Assembly: GCA_914767715.1 (NCBI GenBank)
Contig: OU612073.1
Coordinates: 12,772,001 to 12,836,000, forward strand
DNA: 64,000 nucleotides
Direction: 5' to 3'
DNA from: Membranipora membranacea
Taxonomy: Eukaryota > Bryozoa > Gymnolaemata > Cheilostomatida > Membraniporidae
Position 1 is the first letter of the stretch, and every line of letters begins with the position of its first letter. Below the pieces are notes generated by a model that did not search any database, was not told the origin of the DNA, and worked only from the letters and a program-made list of their open reading frames with translations. Of the stretch, positions 942-60,303 are shown piece by piece. Position numbers and translations under genes: made by a program.

Positions 942-3900
942 CTGATTGATATGTGAGACTTGGTTGTGGTGGTTCAGACCATTGATTTGTATGCAGATCA
1001 TCTATAAACTTTGAGTCGATTAGCTGAACGTCAGTGTTCTGATAGGCCAGGTTTGCCTGTCCATACAGCTGCCATAGCTCACTGCTGTGCTTAGGTTTGG
1101 TGAGAGTTGAGCAGGAATTAGAAGATTTCAGTGAGAAACTTCTGGTGCTGATAATCTGACCCTGTCTCTGAAGCGATCTTTTGTCTAATGTTACAAACTC
1201 GTCGGGTTTAACTCCGGAATATTCTGCCACACAGCTGGGATCTGAAATAGTAAACGCATAGAAAGGACCTTCAGGCGTCAAAATTGTATGATGAAGATTC
1301 GGTAGGCCTTTTCAGAGACAAACCACAGTGAAACTTACAAGACTAGTATGGCTCAGTTGTAGAATAATCTTTGTCTTTAGCTCACTTTTAAAAACTCATT
1401 TACGACTGTTCTATAAGCATAATGAGTTGAACTTTCCGTAATTTTCTAACACAAAACACTCTAAAATGGTCGAGTGGGAGGTTTTATCGGAGGCTTTAGG
1501 TTGGTTTGTGGTTGGTTTTTGGCTGTACATTTTGGAAGACAGGTAAATTGTATAATTTCCTTCAATGCTTTGTTTTGTAATACTATGCAACTTGTTAGAG
1601 GAAATAAGTTAGCACACTGAATTTATTCATAAATTATTCATTTAATGAGAAAGTTTGGTTGCCTAATACTTATATATAGCTGGTTGTCAGTAATTCGTGT
1701 GTGATGCCATTGGATCAAAATAGTTTGAATCAGCACAGAAACAGCACCTATTGACTGATAAAGTAAGTGGTTTTCTACTTACTGTAATTGGTTCCGTCCC
1801 AGGTGTCAGCCGGTTTTTCTAGCGCATGTAAGTCATCCTCGTCGTTAGTGGTGAATGCCTGCGGAGCTCCGAGTATTTTGAGTAGTTTTCTGATTTTCTT
1901 AGATTCTATATAGCGCTCACAGTTTACGAGCGTTATAAGAATCAGTAAGAGTATTGAGAGGGACAATCCGATAGCCACCCCTATGTAGATTTCTGTATCA
2001 AGAGTGTGTAAGATCAATTAGATGGCTCTACAGAATTGTACTATTCCGTTCAATTCCGAATTGTACTTTGATTGAGTTTGCTGGATAGCATTTTTGTAGT
2101 GTATAAGCAGTCGAGTATGTATTTAGCATTGTAGAAAATTGTTGCTGTTCTCCTGGAGTTTCATGCTTTTTAGTCTTATTGGGAATTTAAGTTTGCATTT
2201 GCATATAGAAAAAGCCTGTTATTCAGCATATTGTATAGATATTCTTTGTTTCATTCCAGATGAAGCTATAGTTGTTTGCCATGAAGTGGAATTCCCATTG
2301 ATGACAATTACCTTACACCATCAAACATTCTCATTTAAAATAGAGGAGTTTCTATGAGTTTAAGGCTAAGTGAACTTACTTTCTCTGTTGTTTAGACGAG
2401 GCTGATATATACTGACTCTCACATCAAATCCTGCCGTAGCCTGAGAAACTTTGGCCTTTGGTGTAGTTGGGTCAGGGGGCGGTCGTGTTACGATGCCTTC
2501 ATTCACTTTTAACAAACAAATTATCAGGTTCCATGAATAATGCAGGATTTCCCAAAACATAACAGTGGAAGTGGCTGGAAATCTAAGGCAGATCGTTTTC
2601 GATATGATTGGCATAGAGAATTTTTATGATTGTTATTTGTGATTCATTCTGTACCTTTTGAGTATAACTAGTTTTTTTATAATTCCGGACATGTTCCGCT
2701 TAGTGTCTTAGGAAAAAGACTTACTTAATATCCTCAACACTTGCATAACCTCATGCAGCTTTGGTCATGTTATTTTGAGTGCAAATTGACTGCATATCAA
2801 ACGTTTGGAGTTCAAATCAAGACTTTTGTTCTTAAACTGACCATAGACCCACTCACCCACACAGTCGACATCCATGACAGCGCCCACAAAGTACTTGACA
2901 TCCCTGGACGGGCAGGTCTCAGACCCCTGGTTAGTGAATATCCCCGTAAGCTGCCACCAGGAGGGTATTACTCCCTGTGGGTCACAGTAAGCTTTACCCT
3001 CACATTTATGAACTATCCACTGATACAGGTGTATGTACTGGTCTGCTAGACCACCGTCTTCTGCTTCTGGAGAAAGCGTTACACATAAGGTTAGGGGAAA
3101 CGGGTAAATGAGAGGTGATATTCATACCTCAAATGCGCGCTGTGCATAGCTTATATGGTTGTAGAGCTAGAAACATCTAAACATTGGGTACACATTACTT
3201 TTTATATTTGACGTAAACTCCCACTTTATTACAAGTGTAGCTGGTTGAAACTCTATAAGTCCTCCTGACAGTTGGAGAATATTACATTATGGGATACTTA
3301 TTGCAAATAATGGAATGCTGTTGACATGTAGCCATGTAGGCCATCTGAGTGTAGCTTTACTTGTTATTGCTGCAATCACACCTGTAAGACAGCCCACTAT
3401 TTTGGCCTGACGACTCCTTGAGTTTTGATATAGGGACCGAGTTCAGTATTGTACTTACTGTACTTACTATTTGACTGTACTTACTGCATGACTGTACTTA
3501 CTGTGTATCACTCTGACACAGTCGTTTTTACCGATGCATCCTGAACTGGATATGTTGAGTATTTTGTTTGAGTCTGACGTGGCCAGAACTGTCACAGAGC
3601 GAACTACCATAACAGAATCACGCGCAGTGCAACCCTGCATTGGTAATCGCCTCCCCTGACAAGCGTACAACATCAAACTCTGTGCAACATCTAGAAGTAT
3701 GAACAAAAATCACATCTAGTTGATTGGAAAATGGCCAGTGACAATAGTATGGTAATCTACAAATTGATTCTTTACAATGTACAAGAGAACATAACACGAA
3801 TAGGAAAAATCAGCAAGTTACCTAACAATAGTAGCTTTTTTGTAGATATGGATCTCTCCGTCACAATGCAGCTTAGAAATCAGATTAACACCAAACTCAC

Positions 3901-4033
3901 CTGATTTATTAGAAAAAACTTGGTGTTTAACAATGTATACAATAGGACACTCACATGAACTGACTAATGTTATTCTGCAACCAAGCAGCAGAATGGCGAA
4001 TACAGCGTGTATGATGTTTCCTCTTTGATCCAT
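942..4033 (-). CDS. G1: type I membrane SUEL-like lectin receptor (3' end not resolved)
   Basis: Exons 5' to 3': 4033-3955 signal peptide, 3690-3502 ectodomain first half, 3066-2857 ectodomain second half, 2505-2380 Thr/Pro stalk, 1992-1783 membrane segment and start of tail, 1241-942 tail. All junctions are phase 1 and the frame stays open for 371 codons. Signal: MDQRGNIIHAVFAILLLG. Ectodomain: ACQGRRLP, GC, SGC, NDC, then KCEGKAYC, SWW, ETC, KYFVGAVMDVDC, giving eight cysteines in the SUEL-like spacing. The membrane exon reads YIGVAIGLSLSILLLILITL, then NCERY and LGAPQA. The tail has EYSGVKPDEF and NSCSTL and is the longest tail exon of the family (100 codons). The ATG chosen is the one directly before the hydrophobic stretch; an upstream in-frame ATG adds a hydrophilic leader. 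Ligand and function are unknown; role as a surface receptor is inferred from architecture. Confidence 0.72.
3453..3501 (-). repeat. Four tandem copies of a 5' splice-site consensus
   Basis: The G1 donor after the first ectodomain exon (GTAAGT at 3501-3496) is followed on the minus strand by three more GTAAGT copies at 3484-3479, 3467-3462 and 3458-3453, embedded in a repeated AGTAAGTACAGT unit. Spacings are 17, 17 and 9 bases. Confidence 0.8.
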
Positions 4034-4783: not shown

Positions 4784-7700
4784 TTAGTGGTAGGTTAGAT
4801 CTTCCTGTGATTGCCTGTAGTAAGTAAATGAATCATTAGGTGAAGCTATACCATCATCTCCTTCTGCTTGTACTCCTGAAATAATAAAAATAATCCAAAT
4901 TAAGTAAGGGATATTGGGTTAGAAAAAATCGTAGGGGAAACTGTGACGATGTCCTGCTATCCGTCTCATGGAAAACAGAAAAATACTAATTTGTTCCAAT
5001 GGTCAGTTTAATTCAGAGGTAAATGAAGAATTTATATTTTTTTGGTTACATTTTGAAATATACACACAATGATTGAGAAATCATACACGGAGACTCATAA
5101 CCCTTTATCTGCCACTTTTACATCCCGCTTTTTTCACACACACACTTTGGAGTGCAGTTACCTCAATCGGATAGTCCTTGAACCCTCCCAGTTTCTGAAT
5201 ATCATTGATACTTGTAGTGCACTCAACTGTTTAGTCACAACGTTAAGCAACTATTATGACAATTACATGCGAACATGTAATTTCTTGACATATTTCAAAA
5301 TGGGAATGTGGATTTTATTGCGAGGTTGTGACTGATGTGGACATGCCAATGACCTCATAAGCAATGGTCACTGCCCATTAAGTGCATTGGATATAGTTCC
5401 TTTTATTAGAAGGACTCATTAAATGTTGGATATGGTGAGTAGCTGGCACAATTAGCAGTTTCCTCATTTCCCGATCATGGGTATCGCCTTACAAATTAAC
5501 ATTCCCTCCCCATGAGCAATCGTGATAGTCATTGGCTAATTTACTGATCTATGATCTTTGTAATGCTTATGGGATCAGAGAACTTCAGGGATTCAAACCA
5601 AGTAACGTGGTCACTTTCGCTGTCTGTTATTGCCCTACCCTAAGACCCAATCATAGTAATTTGAGAGAAATGTTGATAATCTTTGTGGATTTTATTTCTC
5701 ATTCTACCAAAGCTAGTACATAAGAAATAAACTACCCTAGGCCCTGCTGAGCAAGTTCCTCAATCTGTTCTTTTCATACCTTCAAATTCAAGAATTCCTA
5801 CCTGTACTTAGGTGAGGGAGCATAGAAGCTGGAAACCATTCATGTAACCCAGAGTTGTCCGCTCCTTGAGGTCTCTCGATAGACGCTGTATTATTGTTGC
5901 TTGCCTTTATCGATCTGGTGTCCTCGAGGTCATGATAGACATGGCTGTGATTATCCAGAATAACAAACTCATCTGGTTTGACTCCTGAGTACTCTCCTAA
6001 CACATCTGGATCTGTTAAACGAGACCATAGGTTCAAAAGCTTTTAGTGTATGGACAATACTAGACCAAGTCTGGTCCATTTGCCTTCATTCGGAGTTGCT
6101 CCCCTTCACTGGTCACGCAGCGTGTGACCAATAAAAAGGGAGCAACATGAATGCAGGCAAACTGGACCAAACTTGGTCTAGAACAATGCTGAATGGTTGT
6201 ATCGCCATATGTGTCACAGTCTCAGAAAGCAGGGATAAGTCGCATTTCTACTATTGTTTATATTAGAGGTTTAAGTTAGAAAACTTATTCTTGATTTCAG
6301 TTTTCTAATTTTTAGAAAACCATCTATTAGGACCAATAAGATGTGCTTTTTCAGAATCTGCAATCAGATTGGCTGAAAAATAAATATAAGGCCCTCTAAC
6401 ATTGGTTTAAAGTCGTCGCTAGGAATGGTTGTATCGCCATATGCATACTTTTCTCAATTTGTAGGTGACTGAGAAATTGAAGTGGTGTGAACAAATTCAG
6501 ACTTAAAGAATGTGAATATGAGAGTCATGGTAACTTACTTCTGCTATTCATGTTCCAGCCATCTATCTCATCGTAGGAGTTGTCCTGAGGTTGCGGTGCT
6601 CCTAGTCGAGATAGCTGTTTGCGGAGATGTTTGTTCTTGTTTTTCTTCTTGTACCTCTCACAGCAGTATATGGTTAATAAGATTATGATAAGCAGCACTA
6701 GAGATAAGCCTATCGCTACCGCTAAATAGATTTCTGTGAATATAGAAACAAAACCTCGTAAACTTTCCTTTCCATTTAATATGCCATGACCATCTTGGGA
6801 GATGGTCAGATATTGATGAGCTAATTACGCGGAGGGACAAGATGAAGGCAAGTGTGCCGAGACGGAAACCTGTTCTCAGACCATCGCTGATGATTGTGAA
6901 TCGGCAATGGTTTCAATTTAGATCTATATACCTATAAATTTCTCTGAATTCGCGATACATGATCAGCACTCGATAATTCAAATAATATTATCAAATATAG
7001 CAAAATATAGCCAACATTTCCAGTCAGAAGGACCAGATGTTACTGACATTTCTAGTCAGATGGACCAGATGTTACTATTTTTCCAGTCATCAGCTTTCTA
7101 ATGATCCACTTACTTTCATTATCTTCCAGTGCTGGTTTATATATCAATACATGGACAGGAAATGGCGTTGTTTCTGCTGGTGTGGTCGGTTTTTGTCTCG
7201 GCTGAGTTGGGGGTGGAGCTGTTGGTATTATTATATCTTCGTCAGCTGAAATGAGTAGTTACAGATTTATAAATATCGGTAGTTTGGCCGTTCAGAATAG
7301 CTATTTCAACAATGAAAAGTTGAAGTTAGATGTATGAGAGTACTAAGTGGAACGGAGCTGATGTGTAAGACTACCTAGTGGAACTGAGATCAAGTTTAGT
7401 ATCGGCTCATCAATGAACGACAAACTCAGTGGTTTAGGGTTTGCAAGATATGGATTTTATTCAGTTTGACTTTGATCAAAAAATTGAGGGTTTGAACAAT
7501 TAGACTTCCGTTTGAACCTGACTTCATATGTTCTAAATTCTTTTAAATATTTAAGATATGAGCGACTTTTTAACATTTTTATTAACAAACTAACAAACAT
7601 ACCGAAGCACTCTTCATGGATCAGAACTCCAGCAAAGTATTGTATTTCAGATTCATTTCCACACTGCTTGAAGGTGTTAGTAAGATCCCACCACTCTGGT

Positions 7701-8638
7701 AACGTTGCGTCAGTCTCGTCACACTGTCTCTTACCCTGACATAAGTGTGCTATCCACTGAAACAAGTACCTATACTCATCTGTCAATCCCTCATCCTTAG
7801 CAGCTAGATAGGCAATAACAACATAATAATAATATATAATAATAATAATATAAATAACATAGTGTAATTACAATTTTTTACAAAATGAATCGGGACTGTC
7901 TTACTTATGACTTCTTTCGGGAAATTATGACACCAATCTTAGTTGAAAACTGAAGATTGTATTTTGAACATACATAACAAAACTAGTTCTTTATACAACC
8001 AGGGAGAACTCCTTGATAAAATTATAATAATAGAACCAACTTGAAAACACTCCAGTGTATACGCAAAACTGGTGCAGGCAACTCCCAATATACGTTTGAC
8101 TTCCATTACAAACTCATTTCCCCTCAAGTTGAAAAATTGGATTATTGAAAAAATTGAAACCGAATTGATTAGCTGACATACTGTTGATGGTGCGTCTGCA
8201 CTCTTCCGCTGCCTGGCATCCTGTGGTATTATCTCTTCTCTGACTCACTTCACCTAATAGTGTCACATTGGAGTTAGTCAGTACAGTTACAGACTTAATT
8301 TTGATGACGGCATCTGGATGTATACAGCCTGATGCACTGAACTTGTCTCCCTGACAAAGGTGGACGATTGCTACTCCAGTTTTATCTGAATTGAAAAATG
8401 AATGGGATGCAGTTTAAAAGTGTGAAATGTAAAACATGACACATGCATGGCACAAGAACTTTATGTATTTGATTGACATATGCGTTTGACTTTGTTAAAA
8501 CGAGCAAGAGACCATCTCAAAACAAATTGGTAAATCCAAATTGTCAACAACTTACTGATTTTACCACTTACATGCTGCACCATGATCTAGCTCTCCTGAA
8601 ATGAAGAATAAGAACAGCACTGAGTAGATGTAACCCAT
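4784..8638 (-). CDS. G2: type I membrane SUEL-like lectin receptor
   Basis: Exons 5' to 3': 8638-8572, 8385-8182, 7803-7603, 7245-7114, 6733-6539, 6011-5802, 4875-4784; all introns phase 1; 366 residues. Signal: MGYIYSVLFLFFISGELD. Ectodomain cysteines: LCQGDKF, GC, GC, EEC, then LCQGKRQC, PEWW, QC, QYFAGVLIHEEC. Stalk is rich in Pro/Thr and ends LIYKPALEDNE, as in the paralogs. The membrane exon YLAVAIGLSLVLLIIILLTI is followed by YCCERYKKK, LGAPQPQDN. The tail exon has NPDVLGEYSGVKPDEF but no NSCSTL block. The terminal exon is unlike the EN.[ED]LE.RM ends of the paralogs and instead ends with tyrosines (FTYYRQSQEDLTYH). This is either a replaced tail end or an alternative terminal exon. Confidence 0.8.
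6061..6180. repeat. 120-bp near-perfect inverted repeat in a G2 intron
   Basis: The left arm begins TAGACCAAGTCTGGTCCATT; the right arm read on the other strand begins TAGACCAAGTTTGGTCCAGT and follows it for about 55 bases (TTTGCC, CATTC, GTTGCTCCC, TGGTCAC). The centre is short. It lies in the intron between the membrane and tail exons. It could be a foldback/MITE element or a hairpin-RNA source. Confidence 0.75.
7015..7077. repeat. Two-copy 31-bp tandem repeat
   Basis: Two adjacent units of the form CATTTCCAGTCAGAAGGACC and following AGATGTTACTGA, with a partial third (CCAGTCATC), just downstream of the G2 stalk exon on the gene strand, in the next intron. Confidence 0.6.
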
Positions 8639-10526: not shown

Positions 10527-13500
10527 CTATTGGTTGTCATAATTCTGTGCTGCCAACATTCTCTGCTCCAACTCGATATTTTCTTCTGTAAACAAAAAGT
10601 CATATTTTTGTTTAAAAAATATGTTTATTTGGGAGCACCTTGTCAACTTGTCATCTCACTTTAACTTTAGTGTCGGAAACAAAGTTTGCACTTATTGCTG
10701 ATTTTACCAGTGATTATAGCGTGCAGAAACCTTAGTTCGGAGTTGTCTGCGAAAATATGCACACTCATGAATGGGCAGATAACTCTAATTTTGGTTGGAA
10801 AACCGCACAATCTGAATCACCGGGGATTGCAACAAATAGCTCATTCACCGGATAGCATTATGCTCAGTAAATAGTGTATCCAAAAAATGATCCTTAATTT
10901 CTATGGGAAATCAGGTCAATGATAGCATAATTGGAGTTCTAGTCCTGAACTTTGAGGGCCTATTCTAACATTGGCTTGTGTGAATGTTGACCCTTCTAAA
11001 TTTGTCAAAATATATATCGTCAAAGGAGCCACCTCCTTGCCTCCACCATGACTGCTAATGGGAATATTTCTTGACATGTTTCTATAATCAGGATTAACCA
11101 ATCATTGAACTCACGTGTTGTGTAATCGACGGGTCCAGTGTATTTAGCCTCCATAGATATATCAGGCTTGGTCTGCTTCCTGTCCATTCTGTCTAGAGTA
11201 GCGCAGCTGTTGCCCCTCCTCATGGTGCTGTTTAATGTATCATACATGATCTGCCCTGAGGACACCATAGCCTTTTTGTCTAATGTCATGAACTCATTTG
11301 GTTTGACTCCAGTGTATTCACCTAGCGCTTCCTCATCTACAATGAATAATGGGAAGTTGGAATGTTGTCACTCTGGCACCTTGCTGGTGATGATTAATGG
11401 TCACATTTGTGGATCAAATGATGATATTCACCATTACTTCCTTTTGAACTGCCTACAGTGGTGGCTGGGCTTTTTGTAAAATCGAAATGATGCAGAAGAA
11501 GACTCAGTGTTTGACCGTTGTCTCCATCAAATAACTTCCCATCCTCTCAGCTGGCGGATCTGATGGATTCATTTTGTTGATATTGACATGGTGACTCGGC
11601 AAAAGATGATTTCTTCACTGGTTATCCCGGGATGATAATGACTCATGGCTGATTCTTGAGAAAATATATGTCCCGGCTATCGATGATTCTGGGTTGATGA
11701 TGAAATATGTATGTTTATAACTAAGGAAGCACCCACAAACCACAAAACTCAGATAAACTTCAACCAACAACTATAACAAATCACCCATATCTCACACTCA
11801 GACAACTCTCATAATCACAACACTGACAGATCAAACATACTCATCCTTCTAACATCAAGGATGTGTTCTATCAGTAATAAGCAAAGTTGTCCAGAATTTC
11901 AATCACCTGCCCTCTGGAGAGTACAGTCTCTTAGCACTACCCCCCCCCCCTCTCCACATAATCAAGACAACTGAGGAAGTTAAACAAATCAATCTAGTGG
12001 ATGTGCTGAACAAGAACTCATAAATGAAACGGATCGTGGATAGAATAAGTCTATCTCAGCTGGAGTCTCACATACATACAGACAGACACTGAGGTCATGA
12101 GGATGTCACCTGAATTAATGAGATGTCACATTTCGAGATCATGAAACAATTCTGAGGTCTTTAAAATAACCTTGTCAGAACATTATTATCAATTGATAGG
12201 AAAACATAAATCAGTAAAGATGAGACATCTCTGTCATCAACATGGCACAAGCGTACAAATTAAATTGATAGATTCACAAAGCAAATGCGTTCCCCTCGCT
12301 CTATTTTTAGAGGTATCTAGTGTTCAGAGTGAGTGGGAACTGGTGGGAACTGAGTTCCTGCAAAAATATAGAGAGGGAACCTTTAGAATACAGTTCCCAC
12401 TGGATTCTGTTCAAAAACAGTGTCAAGTTGTCTCTTTTTACCAGATATCAATCATACTCTAACATACCCATATTTGTGCATAATTTGATCTAGAAATTGC
12501 AAGAAATTCTCAAAACAATTTTCAACCCAGAGAGTAGAGACCCACAAAGAAAAAAGTCCACTTATACCACTAGAGGTATCAAAACAACAACTTCATCAGT
12601 AAATGCTCTGGTTATTCGGTAATGATGGTGTTGATTCTCTGCTTCCATAGCCATCTCAAGAGATTACCCCCACACAGTCTGCTTTATCATGATAAATGAG
12701 CCAGGATAAGACAGATTATGCTTACAACTTATGTAATTCTAATCCTATAAAATGGATCATTTACCTTTGCCACTTTAATCATACCATCGCAACAAGCATA
12801 AAACCACAGGTGGAGCTGCTAGACTCCCAAAGAGTCTTAGTTAATTATGTTGTCCAATTAAATAGAAGACAGTGCACCCAGCAAAGTCATATACAAAGTA
12901 ATTGCAACCATTGTCAGTCCATGAGACAAAAGTTGATCCGCTATCGGACGATTTTATCTAGGCCTATTGTTATCAGGGTAGGCCTCCCAATCTGACCTAA
13001 AATGTGATCAGTCTTGATCTTGATCATGTTCTACTTACTGACTGTATCATCCCATCCATCCCTTCTGCCGTAATCGAGATCATCAAATGGATCGTCCTCA
13101 GCTGTTGGAGCTCCGAGCATTTTCAAAATTCTTCTGAACCTCTTAGAATGTCTGTATCTCTCACAGCAGTATAAGACTATGATTATCATTATGAGGATAG
13201 CTATAGCTAGTCCGATAGCTACACCAAGGATCGTCTCTAAAGAGTATAAAAAGACGGCATATAAAGACAGACTCGGAGCCTTCTTCTAGGCCACCTTTTC
13301 TCACAAAAAGTTAAATACTTTAGCACCTGTTGTGTTGTCATAACCTCAGTGGATTGAAGCAAAAGGGCTCACGGGTAATGTACAAAACGAGGCAATACGA
13401 AATCAAAACGATGTGAAACTTGGTGATGAAACCGTCAATGATTGCACATTCATGGTGATTACACATACAGTGCTCTACTTGATACCGAAACCCTCTTTGA

Positions 13501-15847
13501 CGTACTAATGTTTAATAGAATAAAAAATAAGTTCCTGTTGGAATATTTTTGGCAATATATCAGCTATCAAGAATTTCAACTGAATATGTCACTTTGAATT
13601 CCCTTTGTAAGATTTTGATTGATGCAGATGCAGTTGTCTAAGAGTTTATTGTTTGCAAGTGAAGCTGTGAAGGATCTTCATCTACATCCATGACTACTAG
13701 GTGGAATGGAAAATGTCCACTGATGTATATTTAAGAACACCAGCGAACTACTTCACTGAACAGTCAAGAGTCAAACCACACCTGCTCAGTAGCCATTACC
13801 ATTTTCTAACACAAAATATACAATATATATCTGTTATCTGCATCGACTGTCACAGCTCAAGTTCTGCTCATAAATTTAATTAGTGAACTCCTTCATTTAT
13901 TTGAAATAAGAAAACCAATTTATCCTGAAGCCTATTAGCATCTGCTTATCTTACTAGGCTGATCACTGGTCTAATACTGTGTGGTGATATTAATTATTTC
14001 TGAAGGTGAGGTTACAGCTTACATTTAATCAGTGGGCCTCCAGTCAAGATGGAGGGCTCCTGTGACACAAAACTGAGGTAGGGAGTAGAATATTTCGGAA
14101 TTCCGCCCTGCTACTTACAAAACCGGCTTATTTAAAGCAGTTGCCCTGTCCGATGGAGCCTTGCCCCATACAACCTGTACTCAGACAAATCAAGGAGTTA
14201 CTCCTGGGGCAAATTATCATTGCTATGTGAACTGGCTATGAAACACTTACTTTCTCTGCCGTTTAGCTCTGGCTGGTAAACGTTGAAGAACACTGGGAAT
14301 GGTGTGGTTGTTGTTGGGGTGGTGGGTTTTTCCCTCAAGGTAGTAGAGGGCGGAGGTCCAACTGTTGAAACTACACTGTCCCCTCCTGAAATCAAATATT
14401 AGATGGAAGTTAACAGCAAAATAGCTGATGTATTGGGCACCCAATGCGTGACGGTTGAATAACACTCAGAGCTACCCCTCAACATTTCACTATGAAATGC
14501 CCTTGTCAATATTAGGTTGAACCATAGACTTATTAAAGTTTATTATTAAGTTGATTGGTTGAACTGATCGTACTACTAGCAATATCTCCTAGTATAAAGT
14601 GTACTTACCAACACAAGAGTGATCTATCAGTACACCCATGAAATACTGCAATCTAGATGGTTTGCCCAAAACACACGCCGATTCATCATCAATGTAATAC
14701 CACCACTCTGGCATAGTGTTGTTAAAAGGGTCACAGGAAGTCTTTCCTTGACACTTGTTGTAAACCCACTGGAACAAATGCATCAGCTCTGTAGGCAAGG
14801 CCTCATCTTCGGCAGCTGCAATGACAAGTTATAATCATGTCCAATTTATTTGATGTTTCATAAATATGAGTCAGGAAGGGCATAACTTACATTTCACTTT
14901 TGTTCAACCAAAGCAGGTCAGGTGTATTGGTTCCAATGGCTAAGATTCGGGTAAGGAATTATTTTGAGGATATGGTCACATAATGAAATTGTTATTTTAC
15001 TCGATCATCTTATGTGGTCTATTGCTGTGGAATGAGGTTGGTGGTATTCTTATGGTTCTGGATTAAGGCCGTCTTGTTGGACAACGGTGAGAATAGAGTG
15101 GCAAATAGAAGTACCAAGAAAATAGATCAAGATACCAGCTGATCATGTGTTTTCCTGATGAGAAAAATAAGAACTTTCCAGCTTACTGTGTATCTTTCTG
15201 TCACAGTTGTCACGATTTGTAAGTTGAGCTACTGTAGAGCAGTTTTGGGCTTCGGCACTGGGGGCTGTGATTATTGTGATTGACCGCAGCCGTATGGTAA
15301 AAATGCCATTACAATTGATACTCTGTGGTAAGGGTGAGCCTTGACAGACATAGGCGTTAGACGTCGATATTGTGACTGTAAATAGAAAGTGATAAATGTT
15401 TTACAGAGACTCTAGTAGCACCAGGAGATGGACCAGGGAGTCACTTCCAACTCTTTGGTAGGACAGATATGGAGCTTACTTGCTGGGACATAGCACTCAA
15501 TAGTCTTGTTTTTAAGCTGATTCCGTTCATTCTTGGAGGGATGCTCAAATCCTAGTTGAACCTCGAATCTCATTCTTATTTTGCATTACAAAATTTAAAG
15601 TGATCTGAAGACTAAATCTATTCTGTTTCCAAAATCTGGTAATCACAGGTTAGTTGTACTTTCAGGGTATAGACTCAGTGAGCATTGAATCTCAATGAAG
15701 CTGCATCTAAAAAAATTAAAAGCAAGCAGTGACTTCTTATTTGGTAGTATCTATCTAGTAGTTGTACTTACAAGAGTAAACTGATTGAGTGTGAAGTTGT
15801 AATCCCAATGCTGCCACAAGAAACAATAACGATCCCCGAGACGCCAT
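10527..15847 (-). CDS. G3: type I membrane SUEL-like lectin receptor
   Basis: Exons 5' to 3': 15847-15772, 15375-15187, 14815-14609, 14385-14251, 13236-13039, 11336-11115, 10585-10527; all introns phase 1; 361 residues. Signal MASRGSLLFLVAALGLQLHT. Ectodomain: VCQGSPLP, NC, NC, NC, then KCQGKTSC, PEWWYYIDDESAC, QYFMGVLIDHSC. Stalk: REKPTTPTTTTPFPV and YQPELNGRE. Membrane exon ILGVAIGLAIAILIMIIIVL, YCCERY, LGAPTAEDD. Tail: EYTGVKPNEF, SSGQIMYD, a basic MRRGNSCATL (RR.NS is a possible PKA-type site), YTGPVDY. Last exon: ENIELEQRM. The five-prime 1.6 kb is nearly identical to G5, so short reads or probes from here will cross-map. Function as a receptor is inferred. Confidence 0.82.
12289..12400. 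repeat. Nested inverted and direct repeats in a G3 intron
   Basis: GTTCCCCTCGCTCTATTTTT at 12289 is mirrored by CAAAAATATAGAGAGGGAAC at 12361-12380. Inside are two direct copies of GTGGGAACTG (12333-12352) and an inverted copy CAGTTCCCAC at 12391. Probably a degraded foldback element. Confidence 0.6.
14186..14214. mobile_element. Tiny palindromic insertion with 5-bp target duplication
   Basis: CAAAT, a 19-base palindrome (CAAGGAGTTACTCCTGGGG), then CAAAT again. The duplicated G5 locus (around 22572) has a single CAAAT and no palindrome, so the empty site is visible in the same window. Confidence 0.7.
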
Positions 15848-18703: not shown

Positions 18704-21090
18704 TCACATCACAACAGTCCTCAAAATCATTGATGATCCTAAGAGTAGTAAATGAACTGACATATCCTTAGATAGTGTAGTTCCAACATTTAGTGGGGTA
18801 GGTGTGGTGGGTTTCTCTCTCAACTTAGTAGTAGGTGGTGGTCCAACTGTAGAAGGTATACTGTCCCCTGCTGAATTCAAAAGATAAAATATGCGAACAG
18901 GAAATAGTTTATCTGTTAGTCATCAATTATGTGTTCGCTAAGAAAAAAACTATGAGGGTATGATAATTTAGTATAAAATGCCTTTGTTTATAGTAGATTA
19001 ATGGGCAGGAAGGAGAAATAACTCCAAATTTGAGGCTGCTAATGGTTTCCTCAGTTCCATATAATTATCTGGATTTGCCTGCCAATATATGTACTACTTT
19101 TCGATGCATCTTTACCTACAATATATAAAGAGTACATACCTACACAGGAGTAGTCAATCTGCACCCCAACAAAGTACTGCGAGCCAGTGCTTGTGTTTTG
19201 GGCACACGTAGATTCATCATCTATATAATACCACCACTCCGGCAGTGTATTGTCAAAAGGGTCACATATAGAACGACCTTGACATTTGTGGTGAATCCAC
19301 TGGAACAAATACTTGTGTTCTGTAGGCAAGCCAAAAGCTTCCACAGCTACAAACACCAACCATATCACTTATTCTTATGCACAGTTACATCGACCCTAGA
19401 GGAGAGCGTGTACTAGACTATAGTTTTGCTAGGTTGGCTCTGGCTGAATGTGAGCTGGCACTTAATTTTGGCTAGTTGAGGTGAGAGTTAATATAAATTA
19501 AAGAGGGTGATTAAGTTTTGGCTAGCTATTTCAAGCATATGCGAAATTGTGAACTTTTCTCCCTGTGAATACATCACTCACTTCTCTAGGGTAAATTAGT
19601 CATGAAGGGTACAGGTAGATATGGATGATGTGATAGCAGCAAGTTTGTTTACATTAGGCTACATGCTCGTGTTCAGTGAGTGAGTTTGGATCGAAGATAT
19701 CCGGTTGAAGGTAATTTTGTGTCTCTTAGACTAGGAGTGAGGTGGCCATGGGGTCACAAATGAGTAGCAGATTTATATATTTATAGACGATCATCAATCA
19801 TCATATTGTCTATTTCTATTTAGATGTGTTTCTTTGGGTTCTGAATTATGGCGTCTCCTTGGCTATTGGAAAGTAAGTGGATCGAATGAAAGTGATCCGG
19901 GTAAAAATCACAAGATACCAGCAATCAATATGTTTTACTGGTAACAGAATATCAATATGATCATAGTTTGGTGAGAAAGCTGCGACTTACCGTATATTTT
20001 TCTGCCGCAGTTACCGCTACTTAAAATTTGCACGACTGAAGTGCAGCATTTGGCTGTATTGATAGGTGCTGTGTATATTGTGATTGACTGGAGCCGTATA
20101 TAACCAGCTCCATGGTACATGCTACAGTTGGTACTCCGTGGTAAGGGCTTGCCCTGACATACGTAGGTGCTAGCTTTGGATAATGTATCTGTAAAATAAG
20201 AAATGAGGGACAAGTACAGCAAATGTGAATGTTACTCAAAGAAACACCACACTCAAGCGTCTGGTTCTTAAGTTGATACCTTAACTTTACAAAGCAATGA
20301 TCAAGATTATTTATTTATTGTGAATCACAAAACTTGAAAAGTGATTTGAAAATAAAATCTATTCTGTTTGCAAAATCTGGTTGTCACATGGCAGTTGAGA
20401 TATATGCAGTAGTTCTGGTCCAAAGATTCGGATGGCTACCATTGTAGATCAGAGGAATTTTCACAAGCAGTAACCATTAATGAGGCTTCATGCACCTGCT
20501 GTAGATGGCTTTCAGATTCTACAAAACCCCCACATTAAAAGCTGCCCCTAAAAAATGCAGTGAATTCTTACTCAGGAGCATCAAGTTTTATACTCACATG
20601 AGTAAACTGATCGAGTTTGAAGTTGTAATCCCAATAAAGCTGCAAAAGTCACTACCGATGTCAAAGACTCCATGTCCTCTCCCTCAGAGTCTAATGGTAC
20701 ACTGAAGGTGATAAATTTGAATGGTCTCGAAGCATTACTACCTTGTGTTTTTGTTGTTTGGTCTGTTGCCAAAGTTCCTCATACTTTCTTGCCCATATCT
20801 ATTATTTGTATGAGCAAGGAGCATTGAGCTCCAGCTAACATCAGCTTGGAAATAAGTTTTTTTTGTTTTCTTCCCTCACTATCAATCACAACTCAGCGAT
20901 AATATACGATTGAAAATGCACAATTCAAATTTTATCATTTTTTATATTGCTAATCCCAAAATCCACATCATTCGGATGGCCATATATTGGTACGAGGAAA
21001 ATTGATTGTAAATGAGAAAAAAAAGTGTGGTAATGGTACAATAAACGCGATAGGAGTGATCTTGCAAACATTTATATGTTAGATGATTAC
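17950..21090. repeat. Tandem duplication unit 1 (contains G4)
   Basis: From CAAAATATTCATGTTGCTGC at the left to the AAACATTTATATGTTAG region at the right, this unit lines up in order with 21112-24617. It includes G4, its promoter (GGTACACTGAAGGTGATAAA is shared) and 3' flank. Divergence is moderate, greater than between G3 and G5. Confidence 0.75.
18704..20673 (-). CDS. G4: SUEL-like lectin, probably GPI-anchored or secreted
   Basis: Exons 5' to 3': 20673-20598, 20188-19991, 19346-19140, 18870-18704; phase 1 introns; 215 residues. Signal MESLTSVVTFAALLGLQLQT; a Met 18 codons upstream is in frame but the paralogs support the inner one. Ectodomain: VCQGKPLP, NC, KCC, NC, then KCQGRSIC, PEWWYYIDDESTC, QYFVGVQIDYSC. 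The last exon begins with the usual stalk (GDSIPSTVGPPP, REKPTTPTPL) but runs to a stop after a hydrophobic end (NVGTTLSKDMSVHLLLLGSS then MIL). There are no membrane-plus-tail exons. The C-terminus resembles a GPI-attachment signal, though the hydrophobic run is short and broken by Arg, so secretion is possible. Confidence 0.72.
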
Positions 21091-21203
21091 AAATCCAAAA
21101 TGAATATGAATCCAAAATATTCATGTTGCTGTAACTGTCTTGAGTACATAAATGTTAGTTCCAGCTATTCTTGAAATTTATTCAATATTTTTTATTGTTA
21201 ATA

Positions 21204-36800: not shown

Positions 36801-36890
36801 GATATAGAGTACATAATATTACTTACCACAATTTGTAGTATAGTATGCTAATCCAGTCAACACTAGCGATAATATCCACATAATATTCAT
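30853..36890 (-). CDS. G7: type I membrane SUEL-like receptor with long acidic tail
   Basis: Exons 5' to 3': 36890-36827, 34818-34621, 33764-33552, 33157-33026, 32789-32589, 32033-31800, 31262-30853; all phase 1; 483 residues. Signal MNIMWILSLVLTGLAYY. Ectodomain: ACAGREF, EC, NC, QC, then LCEGKQQC, PPWW, SC, KYFTGVFIHFDC. Membrane exon ILGVVIGLAIAILIVLLIIL, YCCERYQKNRKF, LGAPKAQDDYDDF. Tail: IGEYTGVKPDEF, NTGQIMPD, NGRRNSCSTL, YNGEMDYNT. The last exon starts with the conserved DENLDLERRMAAV but is 135 codons long rather than 18-30, very rich in Asp, Glu and Ser, with several S-D/E-E sites of casein-kinase-2 type. The first intron (about 2 kb) is the longest in this gene. Confidence 0.83.
32401..32480. 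repeat. Palindrome in a G7 intron
   Basis: GGTTTAAACCAGGGAGTG, TTTAAA, CACCCTCCCTGGTTTAAA: a near-perfect hairpin whose GGTTTAAA ends could also be a direct repeat. Its CAGGGAG core resembles the small insertions elsewhere. Confidence 0.55.
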
Positions 36891-46496: not shown

Positions 46497-49400
46497 TTAG
46501 GTAGATAACCTTTGACCTCCGTTCATTGGCTGTTTCTCTCCGGTTGGCAGCGCTCCAAGTTCTTTATCGTCTAAAGGCGTTTTTAGTGGGACACTCTTAC
46601 TTTTTATACAGAATATATATACGGTCACGCAGACACCTGCAATGACAGCAACTCCTGCCAGAGCACCGACAACTATGAGTATTATCCAACCTGTAAAATG
46701 AAGAAATAATGTATCATTTTACTAACTCTTCTATTCACTCTACCGTATCCTGTTCTGCGAGCCACCCTTGGTAGGTTTACAAACACCATAGTCTCACTCA
46801 ACATCGTGAACTACTTAAGGTCATCTCTTGTGTTTTACGCTGTAGGGACAACTTTTGATCCCATCAGAGAATTTGAATAGAGCTTGTTCAACTATCAGCA
46901 CTGCACCAATTATCAGATTTAACCTTGATGACATGGTCAGTCTGCTGAATGACTGATACCCTTGAACCAAATAAACATATTTACCTGCAGTCATTTTTTT
47001 ATTTGTCGGACTGCTGGAAGGCTCAGGGGGTGTCAAAACGGTAGCCTCAGGAGTTGATTGTTTTTCCATCTCAGTTGTTATTGGTGCAGGATCCTTGGTG
47101 GGAACCGTAGTAGGTGCTTTTGTTGGTATCGTTGGCACAGGTATGGTGGTTGTTACAATACCTTGAGTTGCAACTTCAAACTCATATGGCTCTAAAGTTG
47201 GTACTACATTGGCACCCCCATCTACATCTGTTAAACAATAAATACACAAACAGCCATGAGGAAGTAAGAATATAATTGGAACAGCCATAAATATATGCAT
47301 GGAGTTGTCTTTCTATCAATCAAGAGCAGACAATCTTGAATTATAACTGGTTTCTGCAGGTAAATGCATGATCAAAGGTTTATAAAATATATTATAGCGA
47401 TTTTGGGCTAAAGGCTAAAAACTTGAGACATGAAATTGTTGAATTTTTGAAGATGAAATTTTTTAAATCTGAGTCCTTTGTTAATCTGGAGGTTGTACAC
47501 CATACTCACCGACACATTCCGTTGTTATGACAAGTTTAGCGACATATTCCACATCTTCCCATCCACACACGCCTCCACCTGTTCCTTGTCCAAACTTGGC
47601 AGAGAGCTGACCAGCTAACGGCACACGTCCAGTGCATGAGCTTTTACCGTGGCAGTCGGCTTGTATCTGTCTGTATATACTGACTAGATTTGGTTGTTCC
47701 CATGCGTCCGTAAAGTTTTGTTCTGCAAAATTAAATTCACCAGTAATTTTTCAGGGGAATATAAGACCTTTCTAATAGGTAAAGATAGCTAAAGAAAGCT
47801 AAAGAAAGCTAAAGATAGCTAAATATAGCTAAAGTAGCTAAGAATAGCTAATGTTTTTTCACGACATCCTAACATCTGAAGATCGTATTCTAGCTTAAAA
47901 CACACACTTGGGCACTGGCCTTAGCTGCTCTTGCTCTTGTAGATTGAACAAGTCAGTTAATTTGGAAATTCTCTTGGATATTTCTTCAGTAATTTCAAAC
48001 ATAATTGAGATATTATTCAATGATGGAAGACCCCATGTAGAACTGGGTTGAAAAATTAAAAAAAAAAATCTGATCTAAAGTAATAGGCTCCAAAGTATAT
48101 ACCTCCTCCCATGTCAAAGTTGCATAATCCGTCAGCACATGTCATTGCTTCATCCTCTACATTCATTACAAAGAAAACTTTTTCCACATTCATTACACTA
48201 GTACCATCAGCGAGCCCACATCCAACCTCATACTGTTCTCCTGAACATACTGTGGCAATCGATTCATATACCACTGTAAATAAAGAATAAACTAATAGTG
48301 ACAAGTCCCAAACTCCCTGGTGACAAGAGACCTGATGCACTAATCAGGGAGTTGTCCTCTCGAGCTTAAAGTATAAATCAAATGACTGTGGGTTATGATT
48401 GCTTGTATTATTTGGGAATGGGCTATGACTAAGATCCTTCAACTATCCCCATATACTGTGAACACAAAGAAGTGTATCATCGATGACCTCACAGTGTCCT
48501 TTTAAGTTTGAGACAAGATTACTATTTTTATTGGATATTCAGCTGTGGTCTCTAATGGGTAATGTTATGACGTAGTGTGATGTTTTGCTGATCAACATAA
48601 CAATGGCCTGTTGGCTGCCCCTCTGTCCGCTCACCTGAGCTTGTATTCCCCATGTTGTATGACTGTGACTGTCCTGGGACTGTTAGCTCTGTTAGCTATT
48701 CATATGACCTATTTATTAAGGAGTAGTACACTGACCTAGAAGCCTATATGTGCTAGTAACCTCACTATCATGTGAAATGTGATACGATGATTGGCAATAT
48801 TATTATTCTCGGACTACATCAATCATCATGAATAATGAACTGAGGGAATGTTGCCAAAACTCAACTTAGACAGCTATATAGCATGTAGGTCTAGGGATAA
48901 CATCTAGTATTTTACCTCTGCTGCAGCTGAACTTGACCTCAGAGAAGACAACATCCGATCGACTGACCGATCGACTGATTGAATGGAATGTTTCGGATCA
49001 GAATGATCATTTTGTAGTTCTTGGTATACATGTTCATTTTAATCCTTCTGTAAAACTTTGATCAGCGGAATTGAAATAGATTGCTTCAAAACCAATTTAA
49101 ATTCTATTTTGAGTAAAAATCTCACACCCCCTTAGACAGTAGACACCAGTTACATACACATATGTAACAAACTATGACTAAGCACATTACTACCATCTGT
49201 TTTGAGCATTAACATATAAATACTTTATATATTATAATAATAATATTATGATAATGGTTTTGAGTTATGGCGAAGTTGACTCATGTTAGCCCATTAAATA
49301 CAAATGGCGATCGATAGTGCAGTTTTGTTGTTTGACAGTGCAGTTTTGTTGTTTAACGAGCCGGATACCCCCACTAGCCCAGTACTAAACTACAAAGCTA

Positions 49401-50517
49401 ATGGGGTACTGTACTGGCTAACTGAGATGGATTAGTTTTAAAGCCTTGCTTTATGAGGCTCTAGATTCCATTTCATTCCCTCCTGTTCGATGTTTTGTCG
49501 CTTCATGTTATGAAGTTCAAATAGTGGCATTCAAGGTGCCAATTTCAGAAGGTGTACCTGGTATCCTGTCAATGACCTCCCCTTCTGCAGAATGATAGCT
49601 GGTTTTCAGGTTGTGGTGTTTGAGTACAGATTCAACCTATTTGGAATAATAATATGTCCCCAGCAACCTTAGTTTTATAGGTCTAATGCTAAGAGGGATA
49701 AGCACCTGCTTCCTGCTATGGCATTATACGCCTCATCAATCCTTTTTATAGGAGTTAGTTGTCAAATGAATGTGTATGTGAAAAAAAAACCTGTACCAAC
49801 ACTTGTTTGTAGCCTTACCTAATGACAAGTCTTTTCACTATTTTGATGCTGGTCAGACTCGACCCTGAGGACAAACTCCATAGGACTACGCCAGCCAACC
49901 ATTTACAAAGTTTACCTAGGGGAAAGTCACCTTTTCTTCGGTACCAATATACACGAATCGATCAAAGAATGTTACACATTTATCTGAAACAGAGGTTGGG
50001 CGTCTGACCACTGCCAAATTCTCATTTCGTTTGGGAGTTTGGTAATGAATACTTATCACACCTCTACCACAGTAGCAACCACATATCTTGATTGCTACTT
50101 TTGGTCTGCATCCCTCCCCTACCACCTCTAAGTGTAGCTGCGCTCAGTAGCACCCGACAGGTCACTTGGCTTGATGAATGATCATGGCTAACTTTGCCCA
50201 TTCTCCAATGTACTGTAACTTGCCCAACTTCGCTCAGAACGGGTATTTACAAAATTGCCACTATACACCTGGAGTTACAAGGAAGATCAGGTAAATCTCT
50301 CGAATATGACATCGAAGGACCTGATCTCAGTGAAAGTTCCTGATAATTGGGTGATTGGGTAACAAATGCCATCTTACAATTTTACAATATTTAGCTGCAC
50401 AGCACAATACAATACGCAAAACGGGTCTTATTACTTACTCGTACTCTGTCCAGTTGTTACTGTTATAAGCAAAAGAAAGATGGCCGCCAATGGCACTGCG
50501 ACGCGATGTCTCTCCAT
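46497..50517 (-). CDS. G9: diverged SUEL-like membrane protein with short tail
   Basis: Exons 5' to 3': 50517-50439, 48273-48103, 47722-47510, 47227-46985, 46690-46497; all phase 1; 299 residues. Signal MERHRVAVPLAAIFLLLITV. Ectodomain: VCSGEQYEVGC, TC, LC, then DCHGKSSC, VC, WEDVEYVAKLVITTEC; this second half is the most like a classical SUEL domain (C.GK..C, then K/EY...V.I...C). The stalk exon is twice the usual size (81 codons), rich in Thr, Pro and Glu. The final exon holds one membrane segment (WIILIVVGALAGVAVIAGVC) and a tail of about 35 residues with none of the family tail motifs, so it would not signal the same way. The first intron is about 2.2 kb. Confidence 0.78.
47779..47853. 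repeat. Short tandem repeat (AGCTAAAGA)n
   Basis: About seven imperfect 9-10 base units of the form TAGCTAAAGA, in the G9 intron between the two ectodomain exons. Confidence 0.85.
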
Positions 50518-52640: not shown

Positions 52641-54470
52641 TTACCACAGCAACATTGTAATCATTAAAGATGAACAGATGGCACCAGAAAAACCAGCAAA
52701 TCTCTCACTACCATTATTACTCCCTCTATCATGTTGGTCATGCAACTCATGTCCATGATTTTGGTCTCTACCACTGCTGACCGATTTTGTAGAGGCTATG
52801 ATATGGTGACTTGTTGTTAATCTGGTGTTAGGTGTAGATGACTGCCTTGGTTCCTCAGAGTTCTTCATGTTGCTTGCGGTGGTGTCTTGATGTGTTGTAC
52901 TTGTCCCTTCGGTTGTAAAGCTTACGCCAATACTACTTTTCCCTCCATTTGCAAGGTCTGGTCCAGCTAAGCGCTGTGTTGTGCGGTCATTGGCCAAATC
53001 TGGTCCAGCAAGCCGTTGCGTTGCTGTGTCACTAGATGTGGTTGTGTCAAGATTTGCTTGATCTGGTCCAGCTAAGCGTCTTTTTGTTGTCCCACTATTA
53101 GCCAAATCAGGTCCAGCAAGGCGTCTGGTTGTCGTGTCCAGAAAAGAGGTTGTCCCAAGATTCGCTAGGTCTGGACCAGCCAATCGCTTCTTTGTTGTCC
53201 CAACATTAGCTAAATCAGGTCTGGCAAGTCGTTGGGTTGTCTCAGAACTGGGAGTTGTACCAATGTCAGCAAGATCAGGTCCAGCTAGACGCTTAGCTGT
53301 CACCTCTGTATCAGCCTCATCAGGCACCCCTTGTATACCGACAGGTCCACTTTCTCCTGCTTCAGGGTCTGCTGGTATTGTTGTAGTGTCCTGTGCTATC
53401 TCTTGATTTGCTATATACGGACCAGCAAAATTCTGGGATAAAACAGAGGTACCTAAAAGGAGTTGTAAAGAGAGATTGGTCAGATTTTAGGTCCAGTTAT
53501 TAGTTCTGGGCTTTTTAACATACTGTAATGTATTATTATCAGTGACGCTCAAAACTTGTTTGGGCTTGTAAGAAAAATTACCCAAGGGTCTAAAAATATC
53601 ATCCCTGTTTTGACATCAAACACCACAAAATTGATTGTTATTATATATATAAACATATTAGGAAGTAGGCAATTATGGCTCCAGGATATGTCTTTGAAGT
53701 TAAGTTCAGTGGATGTGATATAGTAGAGTAGACCTGTGTAACAAAACCTGTAATGGATCAGAAAACTATTTCCAATCAAAGGGTGGAAAACGGTTAAGGG
53801 GGTAATGTTGACGTTATATGGCGGGTTTTTCTGTTTCTTTATAAATAGTATTCTGATTGTGTCTGGTATAATGTTTGACAGTTGGGAGTCTGAAATCTCA
53901 AGCTTCTGGGGTTGAGTCATGGCAACAAAGGCTTGTTTTTTATCTCTTCTTATTTGCTGCATAATTTTGCCTATTGTTCAGTGCTAGAACTAAATACACT
54001 CAAAGTGAATGAAGTTGCCTAATTGTAAGACTAAATAAGCTAGGATTTTGAGAGAAGTGATGCCAATGATTAGATTAAAAACCATCTCTCCTAATTGAGA
54101 GCCCCATTATTAGTTCCATATAAGATAAATGTTTTAAACTGAGAGCCTAGTGAAAAATCTCAACAGATGCTCTATCAGAAGAGTACTGGTATCCGACAAG
54201 CATGTGTTGCTATGTTTGCCAGCTCAGGCTAGAATTAATTTGGCTCTATCAATAAAGAGTAAGGTTTCTGGACCTTTAATGAGACAAACAGTTTTTTGGG
54301 TTGGTAGCCATTGTAGATCTTTACATCCATCTGAAAATTGCCACAAATCCCTATTAATCGACAGGACATAGTGATACAACTCTTATAACTCCTGGATCAG
54401 GATGGATTAACTCACCTAATCCCGCTAATAAAAAGATGATCATATGCGTAGAACAAGTTGTCTCACTCAT
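52641..54470 (-). CDS. G10: secreted or GPI-type protein with RLAGPDLAN repeats
   Basis: Two exons: about 54470-54416 (MSETTCSTHMIIFLLAGLG) and 53452-52641, joined in phase 1 like its neighbours; 288 residues. The second exon holds seven copies of RLAGPDLANxGTT between 53291 and 52938, preceded by a degenerate FAGPYIAN. Spacers alternate long (for example PSSETTQ) and short (KK, KR, Q), so the real unit may be a pair of repeats of about 35 residues. The rest is a Thr/Ser-rich, His-containing linker. The end, RFAGFSGAICSSLMITMLLW, is hydrophobic and could be a GPI signal. There are no lectin exons. I do not recognise the repeat family. The first-exon boundary is accurate to about a base. Confidence 0.65.
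52938..53291 (-). repeat. Coding tandem repeat, seven units
   Basis: DNA units contain CGTCTAGCTGGACCTGATCT-like cores; the protein core is RLAGPDLAN. Units are similar but not identical, with substitutions at AGP/ARP and LAN/QAN. Confidence 0.9.
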
Positions 54471-57431: not shown

Positions 57432-57438
57432 TATCTGA

Positions 57439-60303
57439 TCAGCGTGTCATTTTTCCTCTCTCCATTATATACTTGAGAACCACTGAGAGAATACATAGCA
57501 GAGACAGTAGCATTATCAGAGGAGAAGCCTGTGATATTCTACCCGCTGAGTTTGTCTGTCTTTGATTGTCGTTCGCTTTGTTGGTTTCATCTTGCCCACT
57601 TCCAATGAAAATAGCTTAAAAAAAAAAGAATGAATAACTTGAAATCTTTTAATGATGAAACATACCTTTAGCGCTCATAAAGGAGTGCTCACTATTCCTT
57701 AAAGCAATTCTTTATTTTGGTACCATGTTAGAACTCAATTGAGATACCCATGAAATATTCTTTATATTGGGATCTTTGCAACTAACAAAATTTAGCTTGA
57801 TTGTTTATAACAGCAGGCTTATCAGAGCATCAATCTCAATCAACCATAGTAACATAGAGCAACTTGATATTCAAAGGTTTTGAATCTGAAAGCTATTCAT
57901 CATTACTTCCTTGATTTTAGATAAATCATAGCCATCATTTTGTTATAAAAAAAATTGTTTTCTGGCACTGAGTGCAAAACATTTCGAATGAGATGACTTT
58001 TGATGCCAATAAAAAGTATATATATCATACTTCAATTAATTGATTTGCTGTAACGAAGTAAGCCTACATGATGAGGGGACAATTCCAAACAATGCAGTGA
58101 TGTATCCCAAATTCCCTGATGAAGTGAATGAAAATCAGACGACAGTGACAACCAGATCACAGTCACTCATCTTTTGTTTGCAATATGGCACCACAAATTA
58201 AACTTTTAAACAGCTCTTCTTAAACCTATTGGTCTTGATTTTGACTGGGTCATTTACAACACCTCCCATTGCTTATAAAAGTTGCTGACATACTTGAGTT
58301 GTTGGGTTTTCCAGTTGACTCTGGTTTCTCACTCGTGCCAGATCCCCAAGGGTATGGCATTGCTGTACTGATATGGATCAGTGATTCAGTGATTGAGCCG
58401 TTGTTAGCTATATCAGTATCTGCCAAATTTACAGTTGTTGTTGGCTCAGCTACAATCAAAATCATTCATTCATGACTTTCAAACTTGTACGATGAGTGCT
58501 TATTCCTTGTAGATGTCATATTATGTACTGATTATCAAAATCGAATCTGTAAGGTGATAGGGAGTTATGTTATCATTGTTCAAGTAGTGACAACTCCAGA
58601 TATTTTTTAATAAACAGCTCGGAGGCGAGGGGGGGACATACATAAGATTTACTGCTGACGGTCATTGTTTATTTATTTTATCATGTTTACGCTTAGCTAT
58701 GTCACTGATAATAACAGTAGAAGTTGTTTTATTTTGGTAATTGCGTCAAATTACAATTGATGTGGCTGAAAAGGCTCTGTTATTAGATTGTCATATTGAC
58801 ACCGTTTAAAACTGTGATACTTTTCGGGATGAAACAAAAAATAATAATGGTCTTTGTCTTTGGCATTGTTAGATAAAAATTTGATATTAAACTTACGGTG
58901 ACCACAGCCGATATCGATGAACGCCCCTCTGAAGTAGAGTGATTGCACATTAGGATACCTCCTAAGGCAGACAGCGTTAGTACCATTTATAGCAGTGTAC
59001 GGAGGTAAGCTGGGCGCACACTTCAACTTATCATCACAGGAATTAAAGATGTAGTCATATACCGATAACATTGTATCGTGAAACTCCGCTCTGTCACTGC
59101 TGGCTGTGAAAAAATTAGGCTCACTTGTAAAACTAAATAGATGACCTTATAGATTAGCCGTAAACTATAGTATTTGTAGAGTATTTATTTATGTTTATGA
59201 GCCTACTTATCTGAAGGGCACTCTAATTCAGCAGATAATCTGTACTTTGATTTGACCATAAAACTCACTTAGAATCATTTGATTTTATCTCATATATGCA
59301 ACTACAAAAAAAACTTGTTGTGTTGAGTGGGGAAGCTGCCATGGAACGACCCAATTTATTTGTTTTACTATTTCATGCGTCAACTCTTTGCTACGAGCCA
59401 CTTTTATTGCCGAATGGCTTTAGATTTAAACCTTGACATACTCTTCAATGTCTACTCACTTCAGCGTTTGTCAAAAGTCTGCAGATCTGAAACATTCCAA
59501 GAAGAAATTCATAACCATAAAAACTTACGTCTGACTGGGACTTGGCAATCTATTGGTACTGCTTTACACGACTCTCCGTTCTCTTGTGATGCTTTCAGAT
59601 CTCTTTCGTCAGAGCTCAGTAACAGTGTCACCGATAGTATCGACATTCTACCTCCCTCCCAATACTTGCCTTCGTATGAGCAGTTCAGTTTCTTCTGCTC
59701 ATTGAAGCACAAGTTTGCAAAGAACCCTGTAACGATGATGATAGCTTAATATGTATAGTCAAATCTAGTGTCAAAAAGTATTTTACTCGTTAAAATAAGG
59801 TAGTATATAATGCCTTAGAAAGGCACTCTTTGTGATCGATATAAAATGCATAAAACCAAAGGCAACACAAAAAAAGTCTGCAAGAAAGCTCATTGTCTCT
59901 ATGCTGTCACAAAATATGAAATAACAAAAAATCCAATTAGCCTGCTGGACCGTCTTGCTTTTTAATCCGATAATTCTTAAATTTTGTAGTGTAGGCTCAA
60001 TGCTACTAAGGGCAATGCTACAGAGTCACAATTACAAACCTATCTCAATAATTCTTGGAAGCTTGTAAATTTCTTTTGTGCTCCTCACAAGGTTGCATCA
60101 CACAATCATAGTATAAATATCATATATTATACATCTCAGATATCATTTATCATAAATTATACATTTCAGATATCACACATCCAATATAATATATAGTAAA
60201 TAATATGTTATATAGTTGATTGTCGATATTTCATGATTTATTTCTACTTACCTTGTCCAGCCTGAATTAATGTCACGAATATCAAAATCCTCGTTGCTGA
60301 CAT
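57439..60303 (-). CDS. G11: diverged SUEL-like membrane protein with minimal tail
   Basis: Exons 5' to 3': 60303-60252, 59726-59529, 59103-58897, 58449-58294, 57614-57439; all phase 1; 262 residues. Signal MSATRILIFVTLIQAG. The ectodomain keeps eight cysteines in the family order: LCFNEQKKLNC, ESC, IDC, then SCDDKLKC, VC, LYFRGAFIDIGC. The WW motif and CQGK are lost (CFNE, PPY). The stalk is Thr/Ser-rich with potential N-glycosylation sites. The last exon has a single hydrophobic segment (SPLIMLLSLLCILSVVL) followed by about ten mostly basic residues (KYIMERGKMTR), so it is either a tailless membrane protein or, less likely, a GPI precursor. It is the array member next to ASCC3. Confidence 0.75.

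Follow-up and report, generated by a model that had tools for sequence, protein, structure and literature searches.

Latrophilins (ADGRL) carry an extracellular lectin domain of the SUEL type on a membrane protein, and EVA-1/EVA1C join SUEL domains to a single transmembrane segment (TM) and a FAM176 tail. Among colonial animals, Hydractinia and Botryllus have clustered cell-surface receptors for allorecognition, and the Hydractinia Alr proteins have Ig-like extracellular domains. Here we describe a tandem row of eleven genes (g1 to g11) in the bryozoan Membranipora membranacea, lying on chromosome 9 in a stretch of 64,000 nucleotides (C9:12772001-12836000; hereafter the window). Most encode receptor-like proteins that resemble each of these systems in part: a probable SUEL-type domain on a membrane protein, as in latrophilins; the combination of that domain with a single TM, as in EVA-1/EVA1C; and clustering of cell-surface receptors in a colonial animal, as in Hydractinia and Botryllus. 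Unlike latrophilins, they have a single TM and an unrelated tail; unlike EVA-1/EVA1C, they have one domain, a Pro/Thr stalk, and another tail. There was no Pfam match to olfactomedin, GAIN, or seven-transmembrane (7-TM) domains in five homologues from other bryozoans (P0001-P0004 and P0009, described below), nor to FAM176 or Ig-like domains in the family proteins scanned. Membership of the latrophilin, EVA-1, or Alr families was dropped because their defining domains were unmatched.

We propose, with a probability of about 0.6, that the cluster encodes bryozoan-restricted contact receptors, single-pass and in some cases GPI-like (glycosylphosphatidylinositol), each with one diverged SUEL-type domain on a Pro/Thr-rich stalk. 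The plan of a head, a stalk, a TM, and a tyrosine-bearing tail is what suggests contact receptors. The genes form a real tandem receptor-like family, so far found in bryozoans only, with a probable diverged lectin fold. The locus is a compact, mapped candidate, and the sections of the open-licence literature covered by our search show no identified bryozoan recognition receptor; the family also shows how a lectin fold may become a lineage-specific receptor family.

Organization of the cluster

The eleven genes are all on the minus strand, head to tail. An all-against-all blastp of stop-to-stop open reading frames (ORFs; at least 25 amino acids, E up to 1e-3) recovered repeated minus-strand modules corresponding to ectodomain exons A and B, a Pro/Thr stalk, a TM exon, and a tail exon. 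The exon models place these in the order signal, two ectodomain exons, Pro/Thr stalk, TM exon, tail exon, and last exon. Both analyses agreed with the initial annotation in its eleven-gene minus-strand row and in its description of a dense family whose receptor-like surface proteins, encoded in tandem, have a common tail and GPI-like variants. Its further statement that ten genes follow the same plan held for most of them; it failed for g11 (stalk and TM not clearly found), g8 (no tail found), and g9 (an unrelated tail of its own). The receptor gene models are the following.

g1, 942..4033, minus: signal 3955-4033; ectodomain 3502-3690 and 2857-3066; stalk 2380-2505; TM 1783-1992; tail 942-1241; last exon not located
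g2, 5802..8638, minus: signal 8572-8638; ectodomain 8182-8385 and 7603-7803; stalk 7114-7245; TM 6539-6733; tail 5802-6011; last exon not located
g3, 10527..15847, minus: signal 15772-15847; ectodomain 15187-15375 and 14609-14815; stalk 14251-14385; TM 13039-13236; tail 11115-11336; last exon 10527-10585
g4, 18704..20673, minus: signal 20598-20673; ectodomain 19991-20188 and 19140-19346; stalk and GPI-like end 18704-18870; no TM or tail exon found
g5, 22130..24218, minus: signal 24143-24218; ectodomain 23558-23746 and 22970-23176; stalk 22613-22747 (may be optional); stalk and GPI-like end 22130-22335
g6, 25174..29599, minus: signal 29518-29599; ectodomain 28217-28402 and 27160-27357; stalk 26670-26804; TM 26222-26428; tail 25650-25874; last exon 25174-25250
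g7, 30853..36890, minus: signal 36827-36890 (tentative, the least certain of the signal exons); ectodomain 34621-34818 and 33552-33764; stalk 33026-33157; TM 32589-32789; tail 31800-32033; long last exon 30853-31262
g8, 41580..44606, minus: signal 44522-44606; ectodomain 44063-44266 and 42731-42919; stalk 42244-42375; TM 41580-41668, reaching a stop or with a possible phase-2 donor just before it; tail exon looked for and not found
g9, 46497..50517, minus: signal 50439-50517; ectodomain 48103-48273 and 47510-47722; stalk 46985-47227; TM and own short tail 46497-46690
g11, 58897..60303, minus: signal 60252-60303; ectodomain 59529-59726 and 58897-59103; no stalk or TM exon located with confidence, a single hydrophobic segment at about 57.6 kb being a tentative candidate

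In these ten models all 43 introns were GT-AG and phase 1, with no internal stop, a regularity that is partly by construction, as the models were built by seeking GT-AG phase-1 sites. The g3 model was matched by P0005 (188 amino acids, from a 962-nucleotide JGI contig), which was 100% identical to the spliced model where aligned, from the stalk through the TM and tail. It spans three g3 junctions and continues into the last exon (10527-10585); only a spliced transcript would be expected to read across the exons in this way. Another protein, P0008, corresponds to the g6 tail exon and its adjoining intron (119 of the 120 aligned residues equal).

The assembly, tzMemMemb1.1, is given as 339.4 Mb in 21 scaffolds in PMC10290214; RNA-seq data (ERR6464929) and an alternate haplotype (GCA_914767555.1) have been deposited for the species. 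Our genome search covered 339,339,785 bases in 18 contigs. Of at least 32 matches to g6 (E up to 1), 30 fell within the cluster, and the remaining two were on C2 and C3 (E 0.07 and 0.37). Because the g6 matches concentrate in this way, the main class of the family appears to occupy a single genomic place, as far as an exon-by-exon search shows. One further paralogue lies outside the window, so the cluster extends to the left; tblastn at E 0.01 gave no match in segments L011 and L012.

g0, about 4550-7000 of segment L010 (C9:12762001-12772000), 3-7.5 kb left of the window, minus: ectodomain, TM, and diverged tail

The probable SUEL-type ectodomain

With its eight cysteines, the ectodomain probably adopts a SUEL/rhamnose-binding-lectin (RBL) fold in strongly diverged form, judging from a predicted model for which latrophilin and CSL3 lectin domains were the closest in the structural list. 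Exactly eight cysteines were present in seven of the eight genes counted (g1-g3 and g5-g8), with nine in g4; the exons of g9 and g11, read by eye, had 4+4. These cysteines follow the SUEL order, and in a permissive profile alignment C1, C2, and C5-C8 paired as expected while C3 paired with SUEL C4. The g9 class matched the main class by profile (95.5% probability) and may be a weak bridge from it to SUEL. When g9 was included, none of 60 cysteine-keeping shuffles was as good as the observed alignment (best 19.2 vs. 25.1); without g9, the score of the main class against SUEL (25.0) was scarcely higher than that of the best among 100 shuffles (24.2). A wholly new ectodomain was dropped as a candidate, as the g9 bridge and the fold model point to SUEL.

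Compared with SUEL/RBL domains (PF02140; CSL3 and the latrophilin lectin domain), the family has the same eight-cysteine order and C-x-G start and, according to the predicted model, probably the same fold; most members also have the CxG(K/R)xxC core and a (K/Q)Y(F/L) motif preceding the final cysteine. The differences are the absence of the YGR and DPC motifs, a CEG that is mostly CQG, a length of about 122-137 residues against 87-104 in SUEL, and scores under the Pfam threshold. The G-R and D-P-C columns were invariant in alignment A4 (8 rows) and absent from alignment A5 (13 rows), and with these motifs lost, rhamnose/galactose binding cannot be assumed. The best score against PF02140 (SUEL_Lectin) was that of P0004, with 12.9 bits for a gathering cut-off of 31.4. 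No family exceeded its cut-off in Pfam scans of the family proteins, and when eight ectodomains were searched by profile against the PDB no lectin was found, the sole match being a ferredoxin (E 1.1). The initial remark that no described family was known stands insofar as no Pfam family passed its cut-off and protein searches gave only unnamed or uncharacterised proteins; for the ectodomain it has to be amended to a probable diverged SUEL/RBL fold.

Canonical SUEL_Lectin exons above the Pfam cut-off occur elsewhere in the genome, in L013-L014 (C9:21150001-21165000) and L015 (C4:32636001-32645000). Some carry FGR-like and DPC-type motifs, and they are possible sources of the family.

Tails and membrane anchors

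A cytoplasmic tail motif, [GA]EY[TS]GVKPxEF, is common to g1, g2, g3, g6, and g7 (TM and tail exon), and a GQIMYD motif is present in several members. The tail of g1 (AEYSGVKPDEF) belongs to class I, as does that of g2. The stalk, TM, and short tail of g9 differ from those of the other genes. The C-terminal ends of g4 and g5, judged by eye, are GPI-like signals. A classical immunoreceptor tyrosine-based activation or inhibition motif (ITAM/ITIM) was not adopted for the tail; of the tails compared, that of g3 alone fits with IMYDTL.

Homologues and phylogeny

Full-length homologues with the same order of parts were found in Watersipora subatra (P0001, P0003, and P0004) and Bugula neritina (P0002 and P0009), and in the databases searched these two bryozoans are the only source of full-length named homologues. 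A stalk-free search of 5.77 billion proteins (7009 candidates scored) gave seven matches at E<=1: P0001-P0004, P0009, P0005, and an unnamed fragment, P0010. With stalks, eight matches were obtained at E 0.01 among the 8000 candidates sharing most words, namely P0001-P0005 and the unnamed P0006-P0008. When the P0001 ectodomain alone was the query, it was itself the sole match among 59 candidates. The family is so far bryozoan-restricted as far as these databases show; both protein searches detect only relatives that share 5-residue words, and more distant relatives may exist.

Three unnamed ENA-derived proteins (P0006, P0007, and P0010) have similar TM/tail exons (74% identical to g3 and 60% to g6, over short stretches) and are perhaps from other bryozoans.

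Two trees were built, both excluding g9 and g11 and the second also excluding g0. The tree of ectodomain plus tail separated g1, g2, and P0009 from the rest at 97/97. A Bugula member stands on each side of this branch, so at least two lineages predate the species split, and two tail classes seem to be older than it as well. For the lineages of g1 and g6, counterparts probably exist in other bryozoans, with moderate support: g1 and P0009 were joined at 84/78 in the ectodomain-plus-tail tree, and g6 grouped with P0001 and P0002 (88/84) in the first, ectodomain tree. Three results weigh against such orthology: g1 and P0009 reached 51/63 with ectodomains alone, they formed no clade in the tail-only tree (p-AU 0.331, not rejected), and the position of g6 was not resolved in the second tree. 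Genes g3, g4, and g5 formed a group on the Membranipora side (99/100 in the first tree, 100/99 in the second).

Sequence divergence and selection

The near-identity of g3 and g5 was confirmed: 125 of 131 ectodomain residues are identical, and over 1650 bp, introns included, the nucleotide identity is 94.8%. Similar intergenic blocks (17629-18730 and 21034-22200), detected by ORF self-comparison, flank g4 and would fit a history of tandem duplication among g3, g4, and g5.

In 14 chosen pairs (45 are possible), ectodomain identity was always lower than TM/juxtamembrane identity, and lower than tail identity in 13, the exception being g1/P0009. The initial annotation had seen fast change in the ectodomains, and an adaptive interpretation of it found no support in the ratio of non-synonymous to synonymous rates (dN/dS). 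Among 28 ectodomain pairs of g1-g8 (g9, g11, and g0 excluded), dS was undefined in 22, as in all ten tail pairs, and the six pairs with finite dS gave domain-wide values between paralogues of 0.17-0.39. These were 0.17 for g3/g5 (6 non-synonymous and 9 synonymous changes), 0.31 for both g3/g4 and g4/g5, and 0.34-0.39 in three near-saturated pairs.

Proposed function and alternatives

In the mechanism that we infer for contact receptors, the stalk would hold the lectin-fold head off the membrane, and the head would bind a ligand, either a protein or a glycan unlike rhamnose/galactose, that is displayed by an adjacent cell or particle. The TM members would pass a signal through the motifs conserved in their juxtamembrane and tail regions, probably with tyrosines being phosphorylated and adaptors docking, and the GPI-like g4 and g5 may serve as ligands, co-receptors, or decoys.

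Immune families often expand in tandem, and together with the SUEL-like domain such expansion would fit lectin receptors of innate immunity with glycans on microbial surfaces as their ligands; agglutination of Gram-negative bacteria is described for a SUEL-type lectin of a bivalve (PMC8878817). The loss of YGR and DPC and the low dN/dS make this role somewhat unlikely. Receptors for developmental or tissue-specific adhesion or signalling, with latrophilin-like protein-protein contacts, or for gamete recognition, are a tentative alternative with less than an even chance. Latrophilin lectin domains are among the best fold matches, their complexes with teneurin and TOL-1 have been solved (PDB entry titles), and old lineages have conserved tails, but the number and spread of the paralogues and their GPI-like copies exceed the needs of a single housekeeping role. 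A new cysteine-rich domain resembling SUEL by convergence only is unlikely in view of the eight-cysteine order, the lectin domains that head the structural matches, and the g9-class bridge.

Another alternative is a bryozoan allorecognition (fusion/rejection) locus, whose polymorphic ectodomains would sense self or kin where colonies touch. It is attractive because fusion in bryozoans may be limited to close relatives (PMC11686985) and because the open-licence literature searched, as far as its accessible text goes, shows no identified bryozoan allorecognition gene. Weak similarities to Alr1 are noted in the Bugula genome paper. The tandem cluster, the receptor plan, and the occurrence of TM and GPI-like forms would also fit. 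Against this stand the dN/dS values, the appearance of at least two lineages older than the genera, and the identity of P0005 to the reference g3 from the stalk on, the ectodomain lying outside P0005. This role is possible but lacks support, as neither the selection nor the orthology results favour it, and we regard it as quite unlikely. Still less likely is the fuller proposal of a bryozoan allorecognition complex giving a third colonial phylum its own receptor class, with a diverged SUEL fold, a bryozoan-only signalling tail, and GPI-like partners.

Neighbouring and related sequences

The repeat protein that the initial annotation had singled out in the row was confirmed as such; it is unrelated to the receptors, inserted within their row, and present at one place in the genome.

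g10, 52641..54470, minus: ORF 52641-53486; tentative signal exon 54416-54470; AGPDLAN repeats (108-bp tandem unit); hydrophobic C-terminus; one match of g10 in the genome

Copies or fragments of the g9 class occur elsewhere. One, at 4927-5600 (plus strand) of L016 (C9:12846001-12856000), lies past the end of the window by 15 kb and in the opposite orientation, with exons 73-77% identical; others are at 4070-5931 (minus) of L017 (C9:15378001-15388000) and 4455-4616 (minus) of L018 (C3:31876001-31885000). On the right flank of the cluster, 62708-63157 (plus) matched a Sec63 Brl domain (E 3.9e-20), which we take to be perhaps part of an ASCC3/Brr2-type helicase gene.

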